DNA of 64,000 nucleotides from an uncultured Oscillospiraceae bacterium (GTDB lineage: Bacteria > Bacillota > Clostridia > Oscillospirales > Oscillospiraceae): NCBI GenBank assembly GCA_947169975.1, contig CAMVRT010000001.1, positions 62,001-126,000 of the forward strand, written 5' to 3'. Below the pieces are notes generated by a model. The model worked only from the letters and a program-made list of their open reading frames with translations, was not told where the DNA came from and did not search any database. Each line of letters begins with the position of its first letter. Positions within the stretch are counted from its first letter, which is position 1. Shown here piece after piece: positions 2,843 to 58,059 of this stretch. Both the position numbers and the translations under genes were made by a program.

Positions 2843-3366
2843 AAAGACGTATCACTGCCGCTGTGCTGACCGTTTTGTCCATCCTGCCCCTGTTCGGCTG
2901 CGGCGGCAATGCCCGTCCGTCGGAACCGGATCCCCGCCAGACGGGAACCGAGCCCGTTCAGACGGTGTCTGTGGATGAGCTGCGGGAGGATATGCTGGCC
3001 GCCGCTCCCTCTCTGCCGGAGATGAAGACCGTCAGCAACGGGGATGAAAAGGCCGAGGCGCTGTTCTCCTATCTCAGCGACCTGGACTACGACAAGGTCG
3101 AGCACTTTTTCCTCGTCTACTCCGCCACAGGGCTGGCGGATGAGATCGCCGTGATTGCGGTGAAGGATCCCGCCGATGCGGCGGAGGCCAAGGCCTCTCT
3201 GGAGCGCCATCTGTCCAACCGCAAGCAGATGTACGCCCAGTATCAGCCCGATCAGGTGCCCCGCGTGGAAAATGCGGAGGTGTTCACAAAGGATCAGTAT
3301 GTGGTGCTGATCGTCTGTGACGATGCCGCAGCGGTGAAGGCCGCCTTTATCAGGGACGTTGAATAA
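2839..3366 (+). CDS. DUF4358-type lipoprotein
   Basis: 175 residues with a lipoprotein signal peptide ending in the lipobox 'LFGC' (Cys near residue 21), so it is anchored to the outer face of the membrane. The rest resembles the DUF4358 family of clostridial lipoproteins: a short linker rich in Pro and Glu, then an alpha/beta domain with 'EIAVIAVKD' and a C-terminal 'YVVLIVCDD' strand. No catalytic residues are apparent and the function is unknown. It overlaps the upstream transglutaminase-like gene by 4 nt and is followed directly by a strong hairpin at 3368. Confidence 0.75.
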   Translation: MKRRITAAVLTVLSILPLFGCGGNARPSEPDPRQTGTEPVQTVSVDELREDMLAAAPSLPEMKTVSNGDEKAEALFSYLSDLDYDKVEHFFLVYSATGLADEIAVIAVKDPADAAEAKASLERHLSNRKQMYAQYQPDQVPRVENAEVFTKDQYVVLIVCDDAAAVKAAFIRDVE

Positions 3367-3367
3367 T

Positions 3368-3645
3368 AAAACGCCGTGGAACGCAGCGCGTTCCACGGCG
3401 TTTTGAGACTGTCAAAAAACGGCAATGCCGTTTTTTGACAAAAGGCTTGCAGCCTACTGCGCGCACTCATTGTCCGCCAATGGCGGACAATTCGCACACT
3501 TCGTAGTCTGAAAGGTGTATTTTGCCACGTACACGCCGCGGCAAAATACGATTAAATATCTTCGCGCCGTGCGCGGCGCGAACTCTGCGAGGCTTTTTTG
3601 ACAAGCTGAAAACGCCGTGAAACGCAGCGCGTTCCACGGCGTTTT
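3368..3645. repeat. Cassette of nested palindromes bracketed by twin hairpins
   Basis: The space between two convergent genes is filled with inverted repeats. A 17-bp stem with a 3-nt loop (3368-3404) is repeated at 3609-3645 with one base change. Between them are palindromes at 3410-3440 (TGTCAAAAAACGGCA arm), 3469-3491 (ATTGTCCGCCA arm), 3517-3549 (GTATTTTGCC arm) and 3561-3582 (TTCGCGCCG arm). A second TTTTTTGACA lies at 3594-3603, so the inner part of about 195 bp also has near-matching inverted ends. The outer hairpins can serve as terminators for the genes on each side. It looks like a small non-autonomous repeat element; no transposase is present. Confidence 0.75.
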
Positions 3646-25945: not shown

Positions 25946-27301
25946 TTACGGCTGGTTATTCCAGGGGTTGTTGGGATCGGGATCGGTGGGATCCCAGCCG
26001 CGGCAGGCTTCGTTGTCGCTGATCTTGGGTGCGGTGGGCTTGCCCAACGGGCCGGGATCGGAGGAGGAATAGAACTCCACCGCCTGGATCTTGCCCTGCT
26101 TGGCGTTCTCGTAGATCCACTTGGCGTCCGCGATCTGGAGCCGCACGCAGCCCATGGAGGCCGAGGTGCCCAGTTTGTCGAACTCCCAGTACTCCAAAGA
26201 GCTCTTGTCGCCGTTGCGGGTATAGGGAACGGAGTGGAACAGGATCTGTCCCGTGATGTGGGTGACATAGTGGCCGTACACACCGCCGAACAGGCCCCAC
26301 CACTCGGCCACAACGCCCTTGCTGCCCGGCGCGTCAAAGACGCCGGAGCCGGGCGTCGCCGTACCCGTAGAGCAGATCATGGCCCGGACAGGCACGGTAA
26401 AGTAGTCGTTGGCGTCCGGCTCGTACACCGTCACCGTGTTTGCCTCCACGTTGACCTTGATGTAGTACTTGTAGGTCCAGGTCCGCTTGGGCGCTGTGGG
26501 ATCGCTGGGAGGATCTACCGGCGTGGGGGGATCCACCGGCGTGGGTGGGTCTACCGGCGTGGGGGGATCTACCGGCGCGGGGGGATCTACCGGCGCGGGA
26601 GGATCTACCGGCGTGGGGGGATCTACCGGCGCGGGAGGATCTACCGGCGCGGGCGGATCTACCGGCGCGGGAGGATCTACCGGCGTGGGCGGGTCCACAG
26701 GCTCGGGCGGATCTACCGGTGTGACGGGATCTTCCGGCTCATCCGGTTTTGTCATCTCCGGAGTCAGGAAGTTGGCGTCCATATAACCGCTGACGTCCTG
26801 ATAGGTCACGGCAAAGCAGTCCTGTTCAAAGCCGGTGACATTCACGTAGGTATCCCGCTCCAGCTCCTGCAGTACTTCGCCATGGGGCGTTTTGCAAAGG
26901 CTCAGGCTGTCGGAGATAACGCGTCCGTAGGCCGTGAGGCCGAAAGCGCTGGACTTGACGTCCACATAGTCAGCGGACATGTAACCCTCCATGTTGCTGT
27001 AGCGCACCTTGTACCAGTCCTCTTCATCCGCCATGATAAGCACCACCGTGCCTTCTTCAAGCTCGCCCAGGATCGCACCGTCCGTGCTGCCCTCTGTACG
27101 GAGCCGTACGCCGCTGCCCGTTACGATGCCGACAGAGAACTCCGTTGTCTTGTCATTCACCTCGGGAACCTCCGGTTTCACCGGATCCACTGCCGGAGCA
27201 GGTGCGGTCGGCGTGGGCTGGTTATTCTTTTTGCCGCAGGCGCACAGAGTCAGCGCAAACAGCAGCAGGAACACGGCCAGAAGCCGTAAGTTCTTCTTCA
27301 T
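25946..27301 (-). CDS. Lipoprotein L,D-transpeptidase with SH3-like domains and PVDPP repeat linker
   Basis: 451 residues. Lipobox 'LTLCAC' (Cys near residue 20), then two SH3b-like domains (about 55-115 and 120-180), a linker of twelve (T/A/E)PVDPP hexapeptides (about 190-262), and a C-terminal YkuD domain with catalytic 'ILFHSVPY' and 'SASMGCVRL' (His and Cys). YkuD enzymes make 3-3 peptidoglycan cross-links or attach proteins. SH3b domains probably bind the wall, and the Pro-rich linker spans it. It overlaps the upstream nudC stop (ATGA), so the two are co-transcribed. Confidence 0.93.
   Translation of the reverse strand: MKKNLRLLAVFLLLFALTLCACGKKNNQPTPTAPAPAVDPVKPEVPEVNDKTTEFSVGIVTGSGVRLRTEGSTDGAILGELEEGTVVLIMADEEDWYKVRYSNMEGYMSADYVDVKSSAFGLTAYGRVISDSLSLCKTPHGEVLQELERDTYVNVTGFEQDCFAVTYQDVSGYMDANFLTPEMTKPDEPEDPVTPVDPPEPVDPPTPVDPPAPVDPPAPVDPPAPVDPPTPVDPPAPVDPPAPVDPPTPVDPPTPVDPPTPVDPPSDPTAPKRTWTYKYYIKVNVEANTVTVYEPDANDYFTVPVRAMICSTGTATPGSGVFDAPGSKGVVAEWWGLFGGVYGHYVTHITGQILFHSVPYTRNGDKSSLEYWEFDKLGTSASMGCVRLQIADAKWIYENAKQGKIQAVEFYSSSDPGPLGKPTAPKISDNEACRGWDPTDPDPNNPWNNQP
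26508..26725 (-). repeat. Tandem 18-bp repeat coding for PVDPP hexapeptides
   Basis: About twelve head-to-tail 18-bp units, each coding for xPVDPP, within the L,D-transpeptidase gene. Units differ mainly by one codon (Thr, Ala or Glu at the first position) and by silent third bases. Such near-identical units can gain or lose copies by slippage. Confidence 0.9.
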
Positions 27302-28196: not shown

Positions 28197-28228
28197 CCTT
28201 GCCAAGGAATTTCCCCCATGCTATACTG

Positions 28229-28392
28229 ATACTATTCTTCGGTGAAAAGTGAATACTTTTCACCGAAGAGGCGCCGCTTGACGCGTCGCCCCCTCTGTGC
28301 CGAGGCACAGAGGGCGTCTCATACAGCCTCCGACGCGCTGACGCGCTATGAAAAGTAGACAAAGTATCTGCTTTTCATGGGAGACTGGTATA
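28229..28392 (-). repeat. Three-hairpin dispersed repeat, copy 1
   Basis: Same element as at 57328-57489 but reversed. Read on the minus strand it begins TATACCAGTCTCCC, then has hairpin 1 (28348-28378, ATGAAAAG arm), the conserved core TAGCGCGTCAGCGCGTCGGAG and CTGTATGAGACG, hairpin 2 (28291-28314, CCCTCTGTGCC arm), GGCGACGCGTCA and hairpin 3 (28236-28269, TCTTCGGTGAAAAGT arm). It lies between the divergent nudC promoter and uvrC. Confidence 0.85.
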
Positions 28393-28423
28393 AACGGGAA
28401 ACACAGGGAAAGGAGAACGCCCC

Positions 28424-30247
28424 ATGACGAAGGACGAGCTGCGGCAAAAGGCCAACGACCTGCCTCTGGCACCGGGGGTCTATCTGATGATGGACAAAAG
28501 CGGCCAGGTCATCTACGTGGGCAAGGCGAAAAAGCTGAAAAACCGGGTCAGTCAGTATTTTCAGGACAGCGCCGGCCACAACGAGAAGACCCGGGCCATG
28601 GTAGCCCAGGTGGACCACTTTGACACCATCTTCGTCCGTTCCGAGTTCGAGGCCCTGATCCTGGAGAACTCCCTCATCAAGCACCATCAGCCACACTATA
28701 ATATTCTGCTCAAGGATGACAAGGGTTATCCCTTTGTCCGTCTGTCCAAAGACACTCCCTATCCCCGATTCACACTGGTAGGCAAGGCCGCCGATGACGG
28801 CGCCCGCTACTTCGGTCCCTTCGGCGGGCGCAACGAGACCCGTCTGGCCATTGACGCGGTGTGCAGCGCTCTGAAGCTGCCCACCTGCCGCCGGAAATTT
28901 CCCCGTGACATCGGCAAGGAGCGTCCCTGTCTCAACTACCATATTGGCAAGTGCGACGGCTTCTGCCTGACCGATGGCCCCGGCGAGGCCGTGTACAACG
29001 AGCGGATCGAGCAGGCCTGCCGCCTGTTCAGCGGCAAGCTGCGCTCGCTTACCGACGAGCTCACCGTCCAGATGACCGACGCCGCCGAGAACCTCCGGTT
29101 CGAGGAGGCGGCCCAGCTGCGTGACCGGGTCAAGGCTCTCAGCGTGCTGACCAAACAGCAGCAGGTCATCGCCGGCGTCTGCGCCGACACCGACGTGTGG
29201 GGTCTTTACGTTGGGCAGGTGCGGTGCGGCTGCGCCGTGCTCCATATTGAGGACGGCAACCTGCTGGGCCGTGAGGTGAAGGTCTTTCCCGCTGCGGCAG
29301 ATGAGGCCGAGGCGGACGTTCTGGCCGCCGTGTTGAGCCAATACTATCTCAATCGCTCCGTCCTGCCCCGGGAGATCCTGCTGCCGGTGGTTTGGGAGGA
29401 CGCGGACACCTTTGCCGCCCTGCTGACCGGACAGGCCGGACACCGGGTGGGCCTGCGGGTGCCCCAGCGGGGCGAGCGGGTGGATCTGGTGGCCATGGCC
29501 GGGCGAAATGCCCGGGAGGAGGTGGAGCGCGTCACCTCCGACAGCGAGCGCACCTCCAAGACCCTGGAGCAGCTGGGCGCGCTGGCAGGACTTTCCTCTG
29601 CGCCCCACCGCATCGAGTCCTACGATATTTCCAACCTGCGCAGTGACGATATGGTTGCCTCCATGGTGGTCTTTCAGGACGGCAAGCCCCTGAAGCGGGA
29701 CTACCGCCGCTTCCAGATCAAGACGCTGGATGCTCCCGATGACTATGCCGCCATGCGGGAGGTGCTGACGCGGCGCTTTCAGCACTATCTGGACGGCGAT
29801 CCCAAGTTCACCCCCCTGCCCGATCTCCTGCTGATCGACGGCGGCGAGATGCACGCCCGCTCGGCGCTGGAGGCCACGGCGGCGCTGGGGCTGGACGTCC
29901 CCATTCTGGGCATGGTAAAGGACGACCGGCACCGCACCCGTGCCCTGGTCACGGTGGAGGGGCAGGAGCTGGGCATCCAGCACAGTCCCCCTCTCTTTGC
30001 TCTGGTGGGCAGAGTGCAGGAGGAGGTCCACCGCTTCGCCATCACCTACCACCGGGAAAAGCACGGCAAGAGCACCTACCGCAGCAAGCTGGACGGCATC
30101 CCCGGTCTGGGGGAGAAACGGCGCAGGGATCTGCTCAAGGCCTTCGGCACCGTCCGGGCCGTGTCCCAGGCGGAGGTGGAGGATCTGGCCGCCGCGGTGC
30201 CCCGAAACGTGGCCCAGGCTATCTACGACCGCTTCCATAAACAGTAA
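28424..30247 (+). CDS. uvrC: Excinuclease ABC subunit C
   Basis: 607 residues. The N-terminal GIY-YIG nuclease domain ('PGVYLMMDKSGQVIYVGKAK') makes the 3' incision, a UVR domain ('NLRFEEAAQLRDRVKAL') binds UvrB, the RNase H-like domain ('RIESYDISNLRSDDMVASMV', 'LLLIDGG') makes the 5' incision, and the C-terminal HhH motifs ('LDGIPGLGEKRRRDLLKAFG') bind DNA. Length is typical. Ribosome binding site AAAGGAG. It stands alone behind the dispersed repeat; no clear promoter is visible between the repeat and the gene. Confidence 0.97.
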   Translation: MTKDELRQKANDLPLAPGVYLMMDKSGQVIYVGKAKKLKNRVSQYFQDSAGHNEKTRAMVAQVDHFDTIFVRSEFEALILENSLIKHHQPHYNILLKDDKGYPFVRLSKDTPYPRFTLVGKAADDGARYFGPFGGRNETRLAIDAVCSALKLPTCRRKFPRDIGKERPCLNYHIGKCDGFCLTDGPGEAVYNERIEQACRLFSGKLRSLTDELTVQMTDAAENLRFEEAAQLRDRVKALSVLTKQQQVIAGVCADTDVWGLYVGQVRCGCAVLHIEDGNLLGREVKVFPAAADEAEADVLAAVLSQYYLNRSVLPREILLPVVWEDADTFAALLTGQAGHRVGLRVPQRGERVDLVAMAGRNAREEVERVTSDSERTSKTLEQLGALAGLSSAPHRIESYDISNLRSDDMVASMVVFQDGKPLKRDYRRFQIKTLDAPDDYAAMREVLTRRFQHYLDGDPKFTPLPDLLLIDGGEMHARSALEATAALGLDVPILGMVKDDRHRTRALVTVEGQELGIQHSPPLFALVGRVQEEVHRFAITYHREKHGKSTYRSKLDGIPGLGEKRRRDLLKAFGTVRAVSQAEVEDLAAAVPRNVAQAIYDRFHKQ

Positions 30248-55532: not shown

Positions 55533-57290
55533 ATGTCAGTCAGCGACTATATTGCCCTGCTGGGCGGCGTGGCTCTGTTTCTGTTCGGCATGGCCTTTAT
55601 GGGGGAAAACCTCAAGCGTGTGGCCGGCAGTAAGCTGGAGCTGATCCTCTACCGCCTCAGCAGCACGCCCTTGAGGGGCATCCTGCTGGGTACCGGCGTC
55701 ACCGCCGTGATCCAGTCGTCCTCCGCCACTTCCGTGATGGTGGTGGGTTTCGTCAACTCCGGTATGATGAAGGTGCGTCAGGCCATCGGCATCATCATGG
55801 GCGCCATTCTGGGCACCAGCATCACCGGCTGGATCGTGGCGCTGAGCAGTCTGGGCGGCGGCTCGGGATGGGCAGATCTGCTGTCCACCTCCACCCTGAC
55901 GGGCATGATCGCCATTGTGGGCATCTTGCTGCGGATGGGAAGCAAGAACCGCTCCGTGCGGCACCTGGGCGACATTCTGCTGGGCTTTGCCGTGCTGATG
56001 TTCGGCATGAGCTCTATGAGCGCCGCCGTGTCCCCCCTGCGGGAAAGCGCCAGCTTCCTGCGGCTGCTCACCGCCTTCTCCAACCCCCTGCTGGGCATTC
56101 TGGTGGGTATATTGATCACCAGCGTGCTGCAGAGTGCCTCTGCCGCCGTGGGTATCCTGCAGGCTCTGGCCGCCACCGGCGCCATTACCTTTGATGTGGC
56201 ACTGCCCATCGTCATGGGTATCGCCATCGGCGCTGCCGTGCCCGTGCTGCTCAGTGCCCTGGGCGCAAGCACTGCGGGCAAGCGCACCGCCTTCGCCTAC
56301 CTGCTCATCGACGTGCTGGGCGTGATCATCTGGGGTATCGTGTTTTACGGTGTCAATGCTGTGTTCCGCTTTTCCTTCCTGGGCACCACTATGACCGCTG
56401 TGACCATCGCACTGATGAATACCCTGTTCCGTCTGGCCACCGTGCTGGTGCTGGCGCCTATGATCCGCCCCCTGGAGAAGCTGGTGTGCCTGGCTGTGCC
56501 GGACAAGGGGACCGATCATGCCGACGGGGAGGACATGGACCGGCTGGAGGAACGGTTCCTGCAGCACCCGGCACTGGCCGTGGAGCAGAGCCGTCTGGTG
56601 ACCAACTCCATGGCGCAGAAGGCCAGAGAGAACCTGCTGGATGCCATGGCACTGCGCAGCGAATACTCCGACAAGGGCTTCGACCGGGTGGAGGAGCTGG
56701 AGTCCGTCATCGACCGGTACGAGGACAAGCTGGGCACCTATCTGATGAAGATCACCACCAAATCCATTTCTACCGAACAGAGCGAGGACGTGAGCAAGTA
56801 TCTCCACACCATCTCCGACTTCGAGCGCATTTCCGATCACGCGCTGAACATTGCAGAAGCTGCCCGGGAGCTGCACGAAAAGGAGATCACCTTCTCCGGC
56901 AACGCGGCACGGGAGCTGACGGTGATGGAAAATGCGGTAAAGGAGATCCTGCATCTCACCGTGGACGCCTTCGTGTCCGGCAACATGACGCTGGCGGCGC
57001 GGGTAGAGCCGCTGGAGGAGATCATCGACGGGCTGTGCGACGAGATGAAGCTGCACCACGTGGAGCGGCTGAAAACCGGCGAGTGCACCCTGTCCCACGG
57101 CTTCGTGTTCAACGATCTGCTGACCAACTACGAGCGGGTAGCCGACCACTGCTCCAATGTGGCCGTTGCCATGATCGAGCTGAAATCCGACAGCTTTGAC
57201 ACCCACGAGTATCTCAAGAGCGTCCGCGAGATGCGGGACGCCTCCTTCTCCCGCCACTACGAAGAGTACCGGCAGAAATACGCCATATAA
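55533..57290 (+). CDS. Na/Pi symporter family protein with C-terminal PhoU domain
   Basis: 585 residues. Two Na/Pi-cotransporter repeats with 'TGVTAVIQSSSATSVMVVGF' and 'ILITSVLQSASAAVGILQAL' (QSSS and QSAS motifs), eight or so membrane segments, then a cytoplasmic helical PhoU-like domain (about 340-560, 'YLHTISDFERISDHALNIAE' and 'NDLLTNYERVADHCSNVAVA'). It probably imports phosphate with sodium; PhoU-type tails regulate uptake. Ribosome binding site GGGAGGG. Followed by a terminator, then the repeat. Confidence 0.93.
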   Translation: MSVSDYIALLGGVALFLFGMAFMGENLKRVAGSKLELILYRLSSTPLRGILLGTGVTAVIQSSSATSVMVVGFVNSGMMKVRQAIGIIMGAILGTSITGWIVALSSLGGGSGWADLLSTSTLTGMIAIVGILLRMGSKNRSVRHLGDILLGFAVLMFGMSSMSAAVSPLRESASFLRLLTAFSNPLLGILVGILITSVLQSASAAVGILQALAATGAITFDVALPIVMGIAIGAAVPVLLSALGASTAGKRTAFAYLLIDVLGVIIWGIVFYGVNAVFRFSFLGTTMTAVTIALMNTLFRLATVLVLAPMIRPLEKLVCLAVPDKGTDHADGEDMDRLEERFLQHPALAVEQSRLVTNSMAQKARENLLDAMALRSEYSDKGFDRVEELESVIDRYEDKLGTYLMKITTKSISTEQSEDVSKYLHTISDFERISDHALNIAEAARELHEKEITFSGNAARELTVMENAVKEILHLTVDAFVSGNMTLAARVEPLEEIIDGLCDEMKLHHVERLKTGECTLSHGFVFNDLLTNYERVADHCSNVAVAMIELKSDSFDTHEYLKSVREMRDASFSRHYEEYRQKYAI

Positions 57291-57296
57291 GAGCTT

Positions 57297-57328
57297 CTCC
57301 GGGACGGCTGAGCCGCCCCGGAGTTTTT
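57297..57328 (+). terminator. Terminator of the Na/Pi symporter gene
   Basis: CTCCGGG and CGGC arms pair with GCCG and CCCGGAG, followed by TTTTT. Confidence 0.88.
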
Positions 57329-57489
57329 ATACCAGTCTCCCATTAAAAGTAGACAGTGTCTACTTTTAATAGCGCGTCAGCGCGTCGGAGACTGTATGAG
57401 ACGTCATCTGTGCCTCGGCACAGATGGGGCGACGCGTCATGCGGCGCCCTTTCCATAAAAAGCAGAAACTTTTTATGGAAAAACAGTAT
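57328..57489 (+). repeat. Three-hairpin dispersed repeat, copy 2
   Basis: Begins TATACCAGTCTCCC. Hairpin 1 (57343-57368, TTAAAAGTAGAC arm), core TAGCGCGTCAGCGCGTCGGAG and CTGTATGAGACG, hairpin 2 (CATCTGTGCC/GGCACAGATG), GGCGACGCGTCA, and hairpin 3 (57450-57481, TTTCCATAAAAAG arm). It fills the whole space between the symporter terminator and the stop codon of the next, convergent gene. Reverse copy of 28229-28392. Confidence 0.85.
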
Positions 57490-58022
57490 TATACCGGGAT
57501 CCCGGCGATACCCGTCACCGGATCGGCAAAGATGGGCAGGTGCGGGGTGTGGTACGTCCAGCGGAGGAACAGCGCCCCGATAAGCAGCATCAGCAGCAGG
57601 CTCAGGAGCTGCCAGCCCCGGCCGTCAAACCGTCCGCTCTCTCTGGCCCGGCGGGTGACGGCGAAGGCCAGCAGCACCGCCAGCTGGAAGATCAGAATAT
57701 TCACCAGATGATGAGGCCTCCCCATGATGCCCCAGAGGGTATAGTAGGTCACGGGAATGGCGATCAGCCCCGCCAGCAGTCCCAGCATACGGGGGAACAG
57801 CGCCGAAGCGCCGTTTGTCACCGCCTCTGCCAGAGTCCACAGGAGCCATGGCACCGCCAGCAGCTTCATGTGCTCCCAGGTGGACTCGTTGACGGCGGCG
57901 AAGGCCGCCGCCACAGGGCTTCTGCCGCTCCACTCATAGACAAAGTGGAGCAGATTGCCTGCGATGAGCGTCAGCAGCAGCCCCGCGATCTCCCATCTGT
58001 GCTGTCTTTCTTCCATAACCAT
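57489..58022 (-). CDS. Membrane protein, unknown
   Basis: 177 residues from the ATG at 58022 (ATG at 58016 also possible). Five or six membrane segments; features include 'NLLHFVYEWSGRSPVAAAFA', 'VNESTWEHMKLLAVPWLLWT' and 'YTLWGIMGRPHHLVNILIF'. The conserved-looking His, Glu and Trp residues inside the membrane suggest a real family, but I cannot name one with confidence. Its ribosome binding site GGAGGGG lies inside a perfect hairpin. Third gene of the thrS operon. Confidence 0.7.
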   Translation of the reverse strand: MVMEERQHRWEIAGLLLTLIAGNLLHFVYEWSGRSPVAAAFAAVNESTWEHMKLLAVPWLLWTLAEAVTNGASALFPRMLGLLAGLIAIPVTYYTLWGIMGRPHHLVNILIFQLAVLLAFAVTRRARESGRFDGRGWQLLSLLLMLLIGALFLRWTYHTPHLPIFADPVTGIAGIPV

Positions 58023-58059
58023 CACACCCCTCCGCAAATCCTATGCGGAGGGGTGTGAT
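58021..58059 (-). promoter_or_regulatory. Hairpin hiding the ribosome binding site of the 57489-58022 gene
   Basis: Perfect 16-bp stem with a 7-nt loop between two genes of one operon. On the transcript its second arm (TGCGGAGGGGTGTGAT) contains the ribosome binding site and the first two bases of the start codon. No T-run follows, so it looks more like a translational control or spacer hairpin than a terminator. Confidence 0.6.

Follow-up and report, generated by a model that had tools for sequence, protein, structure and literature searches.

A short, folded repeat that occurs twice in the 64,000-nucleotide stretch of DNA analysed here (the window) belongs to a family of non-autonomous DNA transposons (MITEs), whose members are small and dispersed, end in terminal inverted repeats and are flanked by a target duplication. 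We regard it as likely that this family is moved in trans by an IS630-family DDE transposase, with TNA as its target and a preference for stop codons.

Two copies in the window and the wider family

The original prediction of two oppositely oriented copies was accurate: copy 1 occupies 28230-28390 on the minus strand and copy 2 occupies 57330-57488 on the plus strand. The two are identical at 135 of 161 aligned positions (84%), and of the inverted-repeat pairs listed for the window theirs is the longest (I1, with I13). Their exact limits were derived from the family comparison. No stop-free stretch in the window copies exceeds 48 codons, and the element contains no transposase gene. Copy 1 lies between a minus-strand gene, presumably NUDIX, and ORF 28424-30247, which we take from its sequence to be uvrC (excinuclease C). 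The features are given below, with scores from R1, the covariance model of the element family.

28230..28390, minus strand: element copy 1, 161 bp, between the NUDIX gene (minus) and uvrC (plus); R1 157.3 bits
28227..28229, no strand: copy 1 target duplication TGA, with a T that doubles as the final base of the likely -10 hexamer; empty-site comparison
28391..28393, no strand: copy 1 second target triplet TAA, one change from TGA; empty-site comparison
28380..28390, minus strand: copy 1 left end, outer stem 5' arm; fold and covariation
28348..28378, minus strand: copy 1 hp1a; fold and covariation
28333..28347, minus strand: copy 1 hp1b, AGCGCG..GCGCGT; fold and covariation
28322..28331, minus strand: copy 1 outer stem 3' arm, GGAGGCTGTA; fold and covariation
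28315..28321, minus strand: copy 1 near-invariant unpaired TGAGACG; conservation in the family
28291..28314, minus strand: copy 1 hp2; fold and covariation
28270..28290, minus strand: copy 1 hp2b, GGCGACGCG..GCGGCGCC; fold and covariation
28236..28269, minus strand: copy 1 hp3; fold and covariation
28199..28227, plus strand: likely uvrC promoter TTGCCA-17-TATACT, abutting copy 1; read by eye in the sequence
28424..30247, plus strand: uvrC (excinuclease C), as assumed above; ORF
57330..57488, plus strand: element copy 2, 159 bp; R1 165.4 bits
57327..57329, no strand: copy 2 left target duplication TTA; end reading
57489..57491, no strand: copy 2 right target duplication TTA, the stop codon (TAA, minus strand) of ORF 57489-58037
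57330..57340, plus strand: copy 2 left end, outer stem 5' arm; fold and covariation
57342..57370, plus strand: copy 2 hp1a; fold and covariation
57371..57385, plus strand: copy 2 hp1b; fold and covariation
57387..57396, plus strand: copy 2 outer stem 3' arm, GGAGACTGTA; fold and covariation
57397..57403, plus strand: copy 2 unpaired TGAGACG; conservation in the family
57404..57427, plus strand: copy 2 hp2; fold and covariation
57428..57448, plus strand: copy 2 hp2b; fold and covariation
57449..57482, plus strand: copy 2 hp3; fold and covariation
57297..57326, plus strand: terminator-like hairpin between the upstream gene (ORF 55533-57290) and copy 2, which it adjoins; read in the sequence, flank fold -21.2 kcal/mol

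The genome from which the window is taken (G000; 2.16 Mb, 46 contigs) holds these two full copies and a left half-length copy on another contig (G000:C16:37226-37300). The existence of only two copies genome-wide had been named in advance as evidence against a dispersed family; with the half copy in the same genome and relatives elsewhere, this is not what was found. Among 99 genomes searched, comprising the own genome and its relatives, the family is present in four, the own genome counted. A pattern scan over one genome per species (approximately 85,000 species) returned 38 loci, of which two (L019 and L026) are chance matches and 36 are true, in 15 MAGs whose titles read Oscillospiraceae, Ruminococcaceae, Clostridia, Clostridiales, Eubacteriales or Oscillibacter. 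The dispersal first suggested by two copies is thereby established. The richest genome, RGIG3789 (G099), has 41 terminal-repeat matches at 29 places, at 12 of which both ends are matched; a reversed control pattern gave no match in G099 and two over all 12 genomes. Finally, R1 found matches in at least five of 295 genomes taken from the order, among them the own genome. These number 18, three from the own genome and 15 from others, a floor because scoring was limited to the ten best first-look candidates of each genome.

The element was absent from IMG/VR when scanned with the pattern and from a phage collection searched with one element, and carriage by viruses or phages was rejected on this basis. 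A putative further copy at window 3305-3451 (R1 19 bits, E 0.014) was likewise discarded, as it runs into another repeat.

Two other repeats were observed. An 18-bp tandem repeat lies inside an ORF at window 26470-26775 and reads as proline-rich PVDPP repeats. A second dispersed repeat of the own genome, unrelated to the element (GAGACTGTCAAAAAACGG..TTTTTTGACAAGCTGA; window 3368-3645 and L187-L206), measures 205, 270 or 321 bp and yields 77 BLAST pieces in that genome. It is flanked on both sides by the terminator-like hairpin of the locus itself, present as a direct duplication of 20-38 bp. Over the 20 loci examined, this duplication accompanies 11 of the 14 copies with both ends found; it is exact in nine, carries one mismatch in L187 and is imperfect in L200. 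An insertion that duplicates a whole terminator is worthy of separate study.

Target duplication and empty sites

The tips of the element read TACT..AGTA and are flanked by a 3-bp TNA duplication. TNA stood on both sides in 53 of the 57 rows of the end reading, some of which are other-strand or shifted matches of copies already counted. The middle base was equal in 45 of these 53 and unequal in eight, compared with at most 30 of 53 in 20,000 shuffles, while bases further out agreed at background (13-18 of 53). The refinement of ends sought TNA within four bases, a procedure that favours T and A and not the equality of N. Copies found by R1 in other genomes behave similarly: 12 of the 15 could be read with flanks (L172 and L179, lacking the TACT end, and L185, which abuts the end of its contig, were set aside), and the triplets are equal in 11 of the 12. 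As a separate observation, the G315 copies (L171, L176, L178 and L180-L184) have TAA on both sides in eight of eight cases, a narrower target than elsewhere.

Copy 2 is flanked by TTA/TTA, and copy 1 by TGA/TAA, which differ by one base. Mobility, which the original prediction proposed to seek as empty sites in close strains, is evident at copy 1: three species of the same genus, represented by L157 (G019), L158 (G025) and L159 (G001), carry an empty site at this position. The empty site reads CTATACTGA/ACGGG in L157 and L159 and CTATACTGG/ACGGG in L158; therefore 3 bp were duplicated, not 2. Seven same-genus loci were aligned here, the three clean ones being used and four gapped near the site being excluded. 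Two G099 elements (L014 and L030) were excluded from the empty-site evidence, their alignments across the junction being too poor. The flanks of copy 2 are also found in relatives. A purely TA-based duplication was rejected by the equality of N together with the empty sites.

The position of copy 1 deserves comment in its own right. It directly abuts the putative uvrC promoter, whose TATACT is retained in the three empty-site relatives, and it ends 33 bases ahead of the uvrC start codon. If this promoter is used, copy 1 would constitute most of the uvrC 5' leader. Copy 1 can thus be viewed as a natural experiment, in which a folded insertion of 161 bp has been placed between a likely promoter and the start of uvrC.

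A fold of six helices with strand-neutral covariation

Where three hairpins had been proposed, the element in fact folds into six helices: an outer stem that closes a three-way junction at the left end, hp1a, hp1b, hp2, hp2b and hp3. In the orientation of copy 2, the order is TNA, the left arm opening with TACT, hp1a (AAAAGTAGACA..TGTCTACTTTT), hp1b (AGCGCG..CGCGT), the right arm of the outer stem ending in CTGTA, the unpaired TGAGACG, hp2, hp2b, hp3, the closing AGTA and TNA. The left end and the reverse complement of the right end form an imperfect inverted repeat of 26 bp with TACT..AGTA tips, upholding the imperfect terminal inverted repeats suspected earlier. Hairpin 3, by contrast, had been described as almost unrelated in sequence between copies; its outer arm is part of the terminal repeat shared with the left end. 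In each end the terminal repeat is followed by a partial, inverted copy of itself, and because of this arrangement the end folds on itself.

The number of inner modules is variable. Copies of 136-137 bp lack hp2, G099 has 209-bp copies with an extra hairpin of 51 bp, and G106 has copies of 273-317 bp with several extra modules. The plan is kept in some model-found copies with very different stem sequence (L169, L170 and L174), with the caveat that R1-found copies lean towards the model; hp1a is absent from L175, and retention of the outer stem is doubtful in G315, where eight of the nine matching copies were read. L003 and L007 were considered as solo left-module elements and rejected, since GAGA is kept beyond the module and they look like truncations.

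Covariation was assessed over 38 distinct sequences, 47 pairs and 1751 cells. The pattern that yielded the 36 loci fixes one arm of hp1a and GTATGAGAC, and other loci were found through one terminal repeat; hp1b, hp2 and hp2b are free of this search bias. Paired cells amounted to 97.3%, with 2.7% not paired, against 86.3 ± 0.4% paired in shuffles. Changes on both sides were seen in 25 of the 47 pairs (15.9 ± 1.7 in shuffles) and in 214 cells (58 ± 8.3 in shuffles), and sliding the partner by one to three columns left 10-31 both-side-changed cells and 38-49% pairing. The paired stem changes first noticed between the two window copies are present as described, and the compensatory changes exceed both the shuffled and the slid controls. 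In further pair types, the alignment did not surpass the shuffles (47, compared with 45.6; 162 of 500 shuffles were as high). Mismatches are strand-neutral, with 24 G-T and 18 A-C cells among the 1751, and the unpaired tips and TGAGACG linker are also conserved.

One explanation for these data is a structured RNA, either an sRNA or a regulatory leader, that is spread by mobility and kept for its RNA fold. The strong covariation over all six helices, the near-invariant unpaired TGAGACG and the location of copy 1 right behind a likely -10 hexamer, where it would be a uvrC leader, all speak for such a role. We nonetheless consider it improbable. With an RNA transcribed from a single strand, one would expect G-U to be tolerated but not A-C, yet G-T and A-C cells occur in similar numbers (24 and 18); therefore an RNA function is not favoured, and pairing at the DNA level or template-switch correction fits the mismatches better than a one-strand RNA. 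Furthermore, copy 1 is missing from the same place in three same-genus species, and the copies differ in flanking sequence. There were no Rfam matches at gathering scores within the window; together with the lack of strand bias in mismatches, this led us to reject a known Rfam RNA family.

It had also been argued that paired changes mean a selected structure. In that form the argument is not supported, as intrastrand template-switch correction would give the same pattern. Indeed, the covariation could arise with no selection at all, if slippage and intrastrand template switching perfect the palindromes of a MITE with palindromic ends. Half-changed states are few (the 2.7% of cells not paired), mismatches are strand-neutral and transversions on both sides occur, as in columns 16/47 (A-T 16, T-A 12, G-C 9), all of which speak for such a process. 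However, much of the plan is retained in L169, L170 and L174 despite their very different stems, although the model search favours such copies, and the conservation of the unpaired tips and of the TGAGACG linker also sits uneasily with correction of palindromes. We view this account of the covariation as possible, though less likely than not. Within the MITE interpretation that we prefer, the covariation may keep DNA palindromes intact either through a need of transposition or through palindrome-correcting replication.

Insertion at stop codons

Whatever its middle base, a TNA triplet spells TAA or TGA on one of the two strands. For the analysis of insertion sites, a site present twice (L055, both times with unequal triplets) was dropped once, giving 52 insertions. 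With genes called by a codon-usage caller written for the analysis, 23 of these, window copy 2 among them, lie exactly on a called stop codon, 27 are intergenic and two are inside genes; all other TNA sites at the same loci divide into 199 at stops, 2088 intergenic and 8107 inside genes. The odds ratio for stop versus intergenic sites is 8.9 (p 1e-11), stops making up 8.7% of the tolerated TNA sites. A cruder caller gave 11 stop, 20 intergenic and 21 inside (odds ratio 4.4, p 0.0004). By frame length alone, and with one site counted twice, a frame with at least 100 codons terminates at 26 of the 53 insertions, compared with 232 of 3028 controls; in the R1-found set the corresponding figures are 3 of 11 and 54 of 842 (p 0.03). 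The insertions are also oriented, the gene ending against the hp3 end in 19 of 23 cases and against the left end in four (p 0.0026; control 101 to 98). Flanks fold more stably than those of control sites, with means of -12.3 against -7.8 kcal/mol on the left and -10.4 against -8.0 kcal/mol on the right, and the fold is often a terminator-like hairpin of the kind found beside copy 2.

From this excess we infer target choice and not survival. The alternative is that stop codons are not targeted and that random TNA insertions are filtered by selection, gene ends and terminators being permissive places. The more stable flank folds accord with such filtering, as does the fact that 27 of the 52 insertions are intergenic. 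Against it, gene interiors are already excluded from the comparison, yet stops account for 8.7% of sites and for 23 of 50 insertions, and one orientation dominates by 19 to 4. We take filtering to be a serious contender that falls somewhat short of an even chance. Where the element lands on a stop codon, the duplication restores the stop, and the gene stays whole.

An IS630-family insertion sequence as the likely mover

Two contigs of G105, a genome in which the element is also present, end in a similar terminal repeat together with the start of a gene, and nine of 199 genomes around G105 match this IS-type end. Longer IS copies were read in L130 (G151), L128 (G161) and L140 (G165). Profile matches in the open frames of L130 and L128 are to HTH_29/HTH_33 and DDE_3, the transposase being spread over two reading frames. 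Against NCBIfam IS630, which has a cut-off of 100 bits, L130 scores 133.8 bits with its second frame and a sub-threshold 67.8 with its first.

The left ends of the G161 and G151 sequences agree with both ends of the G099 element L014 at 21-23 of 26 positions, and G161/G151-type ends agree with L027 (G105) at 19-22. For the window copies, the agreement with these left ends is 17-20 of 26 at the left and 16-17 at the right, and the best chance match to the G161 end on both window strands is 17 of 26, seen once; the link of the window copies to the IS therefore rests on the family. The remaining IS ends are more distant (G165 13-17, G166 12-18 and G165b 12-19 of 26). The G165 IS, 1113 bp long, lies between TTA and TTA, precisely at the stop codon of an open frame. 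Of the three full IS copies, it alone has equal flanking triplets, and it is among those with the more distant ends; L128 has TCA/TAA and L130 TGA/TAA. Duplication of a TA dinucleotide is the rule for the IS630 family. The 3-bp TNA duplication departs from that rule, making the system IS630-like in its ends and not a standard member.

On this evidence, an IS630-family IS with similar 26-bp ends is the likely mover. Transposases of the IS630 group were present in four of 23 genomes searched (G151, G158, G161 and G165) and were not found in the draft genomes G000 and G099, the latter having the most element matches. A search of 149 relatives at 1e-20 also returned none, an empty answer that is not proof of absence, and there were no matches to the IS end in a plasmid collection or in IMG/VR. 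As no transposase was found in G000, the copies of that genome look like leftovers.

Partners of other types were also considered. An IS5-family partner, guessed from the TNA duplication, was rejected: PF01609 transposases occur in four of eight genomes, and the five PF01609 loci read gave only two weak pattern matches, unlike the element ends. REP/BIME-type elements, whose mover is a RAYT (Y1) transposase, are likewise small, palindromic and mostly intergenic. To our knowledge, however, IS200/IS605-type (REP/RAYT) transposition makes no target duplication, so that the 3-bp duplication observed, together with inverted-repeat tips, makes this origin unlikely; moreover, the IS with similar ends encodes a DDE_3 transposase. 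We give a RAYT-moved element almost no credence.

Short elements of a second type, 57 to approximately 161 bp long, have the same kind of TACT..AGTA ends. They were noted at L092:1160, L095:988, L108:168, L109:235, L123:994, L135 and L138, with equal triplets in five of the seven; by eye they look like internally deleted IS. In L107 and L110 (G109) an element of this second type is interrupted near its right end by sequence starting GGCCTTGTTTGAAAA, which in L110 carries the start of what we take to be an IS5-like transposase.

Proposed mechanism and comparison with known systems

Taken together, our observations are consistent with the following course of events. The DDE transposase of an IS630-family IS, its identity suggested by the similar ends, would act in trans and cut at the TACT/AGTA tips. 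The element, with its left end folded into a three-way junction, its right end into hp3, and hp2, hp2b and extra modules as further hairpins between them, would then be inserted into a TNA target, of which 3 bp are duplicated; the element, its ends and the duplication are directly observed. One may go further, with considerable reserve, and suppose that an IS630-type transposase and BOX-like folded elements make up a transposition system that targets stop codons and reads the folded ends as DNA hairpins. Were this so, a TNA target would cover every stop codon but TAG, on either strand, and insertion at gene ends would be nearly silent, while machinery reading DNA hairpins would explain the strand-neutral covariation. 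The findings also provide a testable rule by which a mobile element can build up at little cost to its host: insert on a stop codon and duplicate it. The stop-codon excess deserves a test.

Among the literature matches listed, judged by title or abstract opening and with subscription papers mostly outside the scope, there was no description of the element or of stop-codon targeting. The claim that no named element has such a plan was nevertheless too strong, as BOX shares the TACT..AGTA ends and the equal TNA triplets, seen in the copies that we read, and the modular build (PMC3049150). BOX elements of S. pneumoniae, S. mitis and S. suis, which come closest to the element in plan, are described as modular and folded, with a TIR like that of an IS (PMC3049150, PMC2828477, PMC3055811, PMC10969869, PMC2229807). 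BOX and its relatives are reported from streptococci, and mobilisation in trans by ISSpn2, which has a similar TIR, is proposed (PMC3049150).

The BOX copies that we read have TACT..AGTA tips and equal TNA triplets, TAA/TAA in L144 and L145, apparently a single site, and TTA/TTA in L186. They are alike with the element in these tips and triplets, in their variable inner modules and in their strong fold. In contrast, the ends of BOX pair with each other across the element, whereas those of the Oscillospirales element each fold on themselves, and BOX has other inner modules and another host order. Membership of the BOX family by similarity to boxA or boxC was rejected: R1 has no significant match to the BOX copies, a search of three contigs at E up to 10 with filters off giving nothing but an overlap of eight bases (5.6 bits).

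A second precedent is RUP, a MITE inserting at TA, for which IS630-Spn1 of pneumococcus is thought to be the mover from their shared TIR (PMC2229807). Both RUP and the present element are thus MITEs linked to an IS630-family transposase by their TIR. RUP, however, is a simple 107-bp repeat at TA, not described as modular in the part of the source available, whereas the element duplicates TNA. The IS630 family itself has 26-bp ends similar to those of the element; it differs in possessing a DDE_3 transposase, which the element does not, and the duplication made by the element is 3 bp.

From Oscillospirales, our findings add repeats of a BOX-like class, modular and folded, and they link the TACT/TNA end type to an IS630-family transposase. 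For BOX, the accessible text derives the mover from TIR similarity only, and a second system makes this question easier to test. The family described here is probably IS630-driven, as judged from the sequences of its ends. It is a genuine family of MITEs built in the manner of BOX; its kind is known but the family is new, and its target is unusual.
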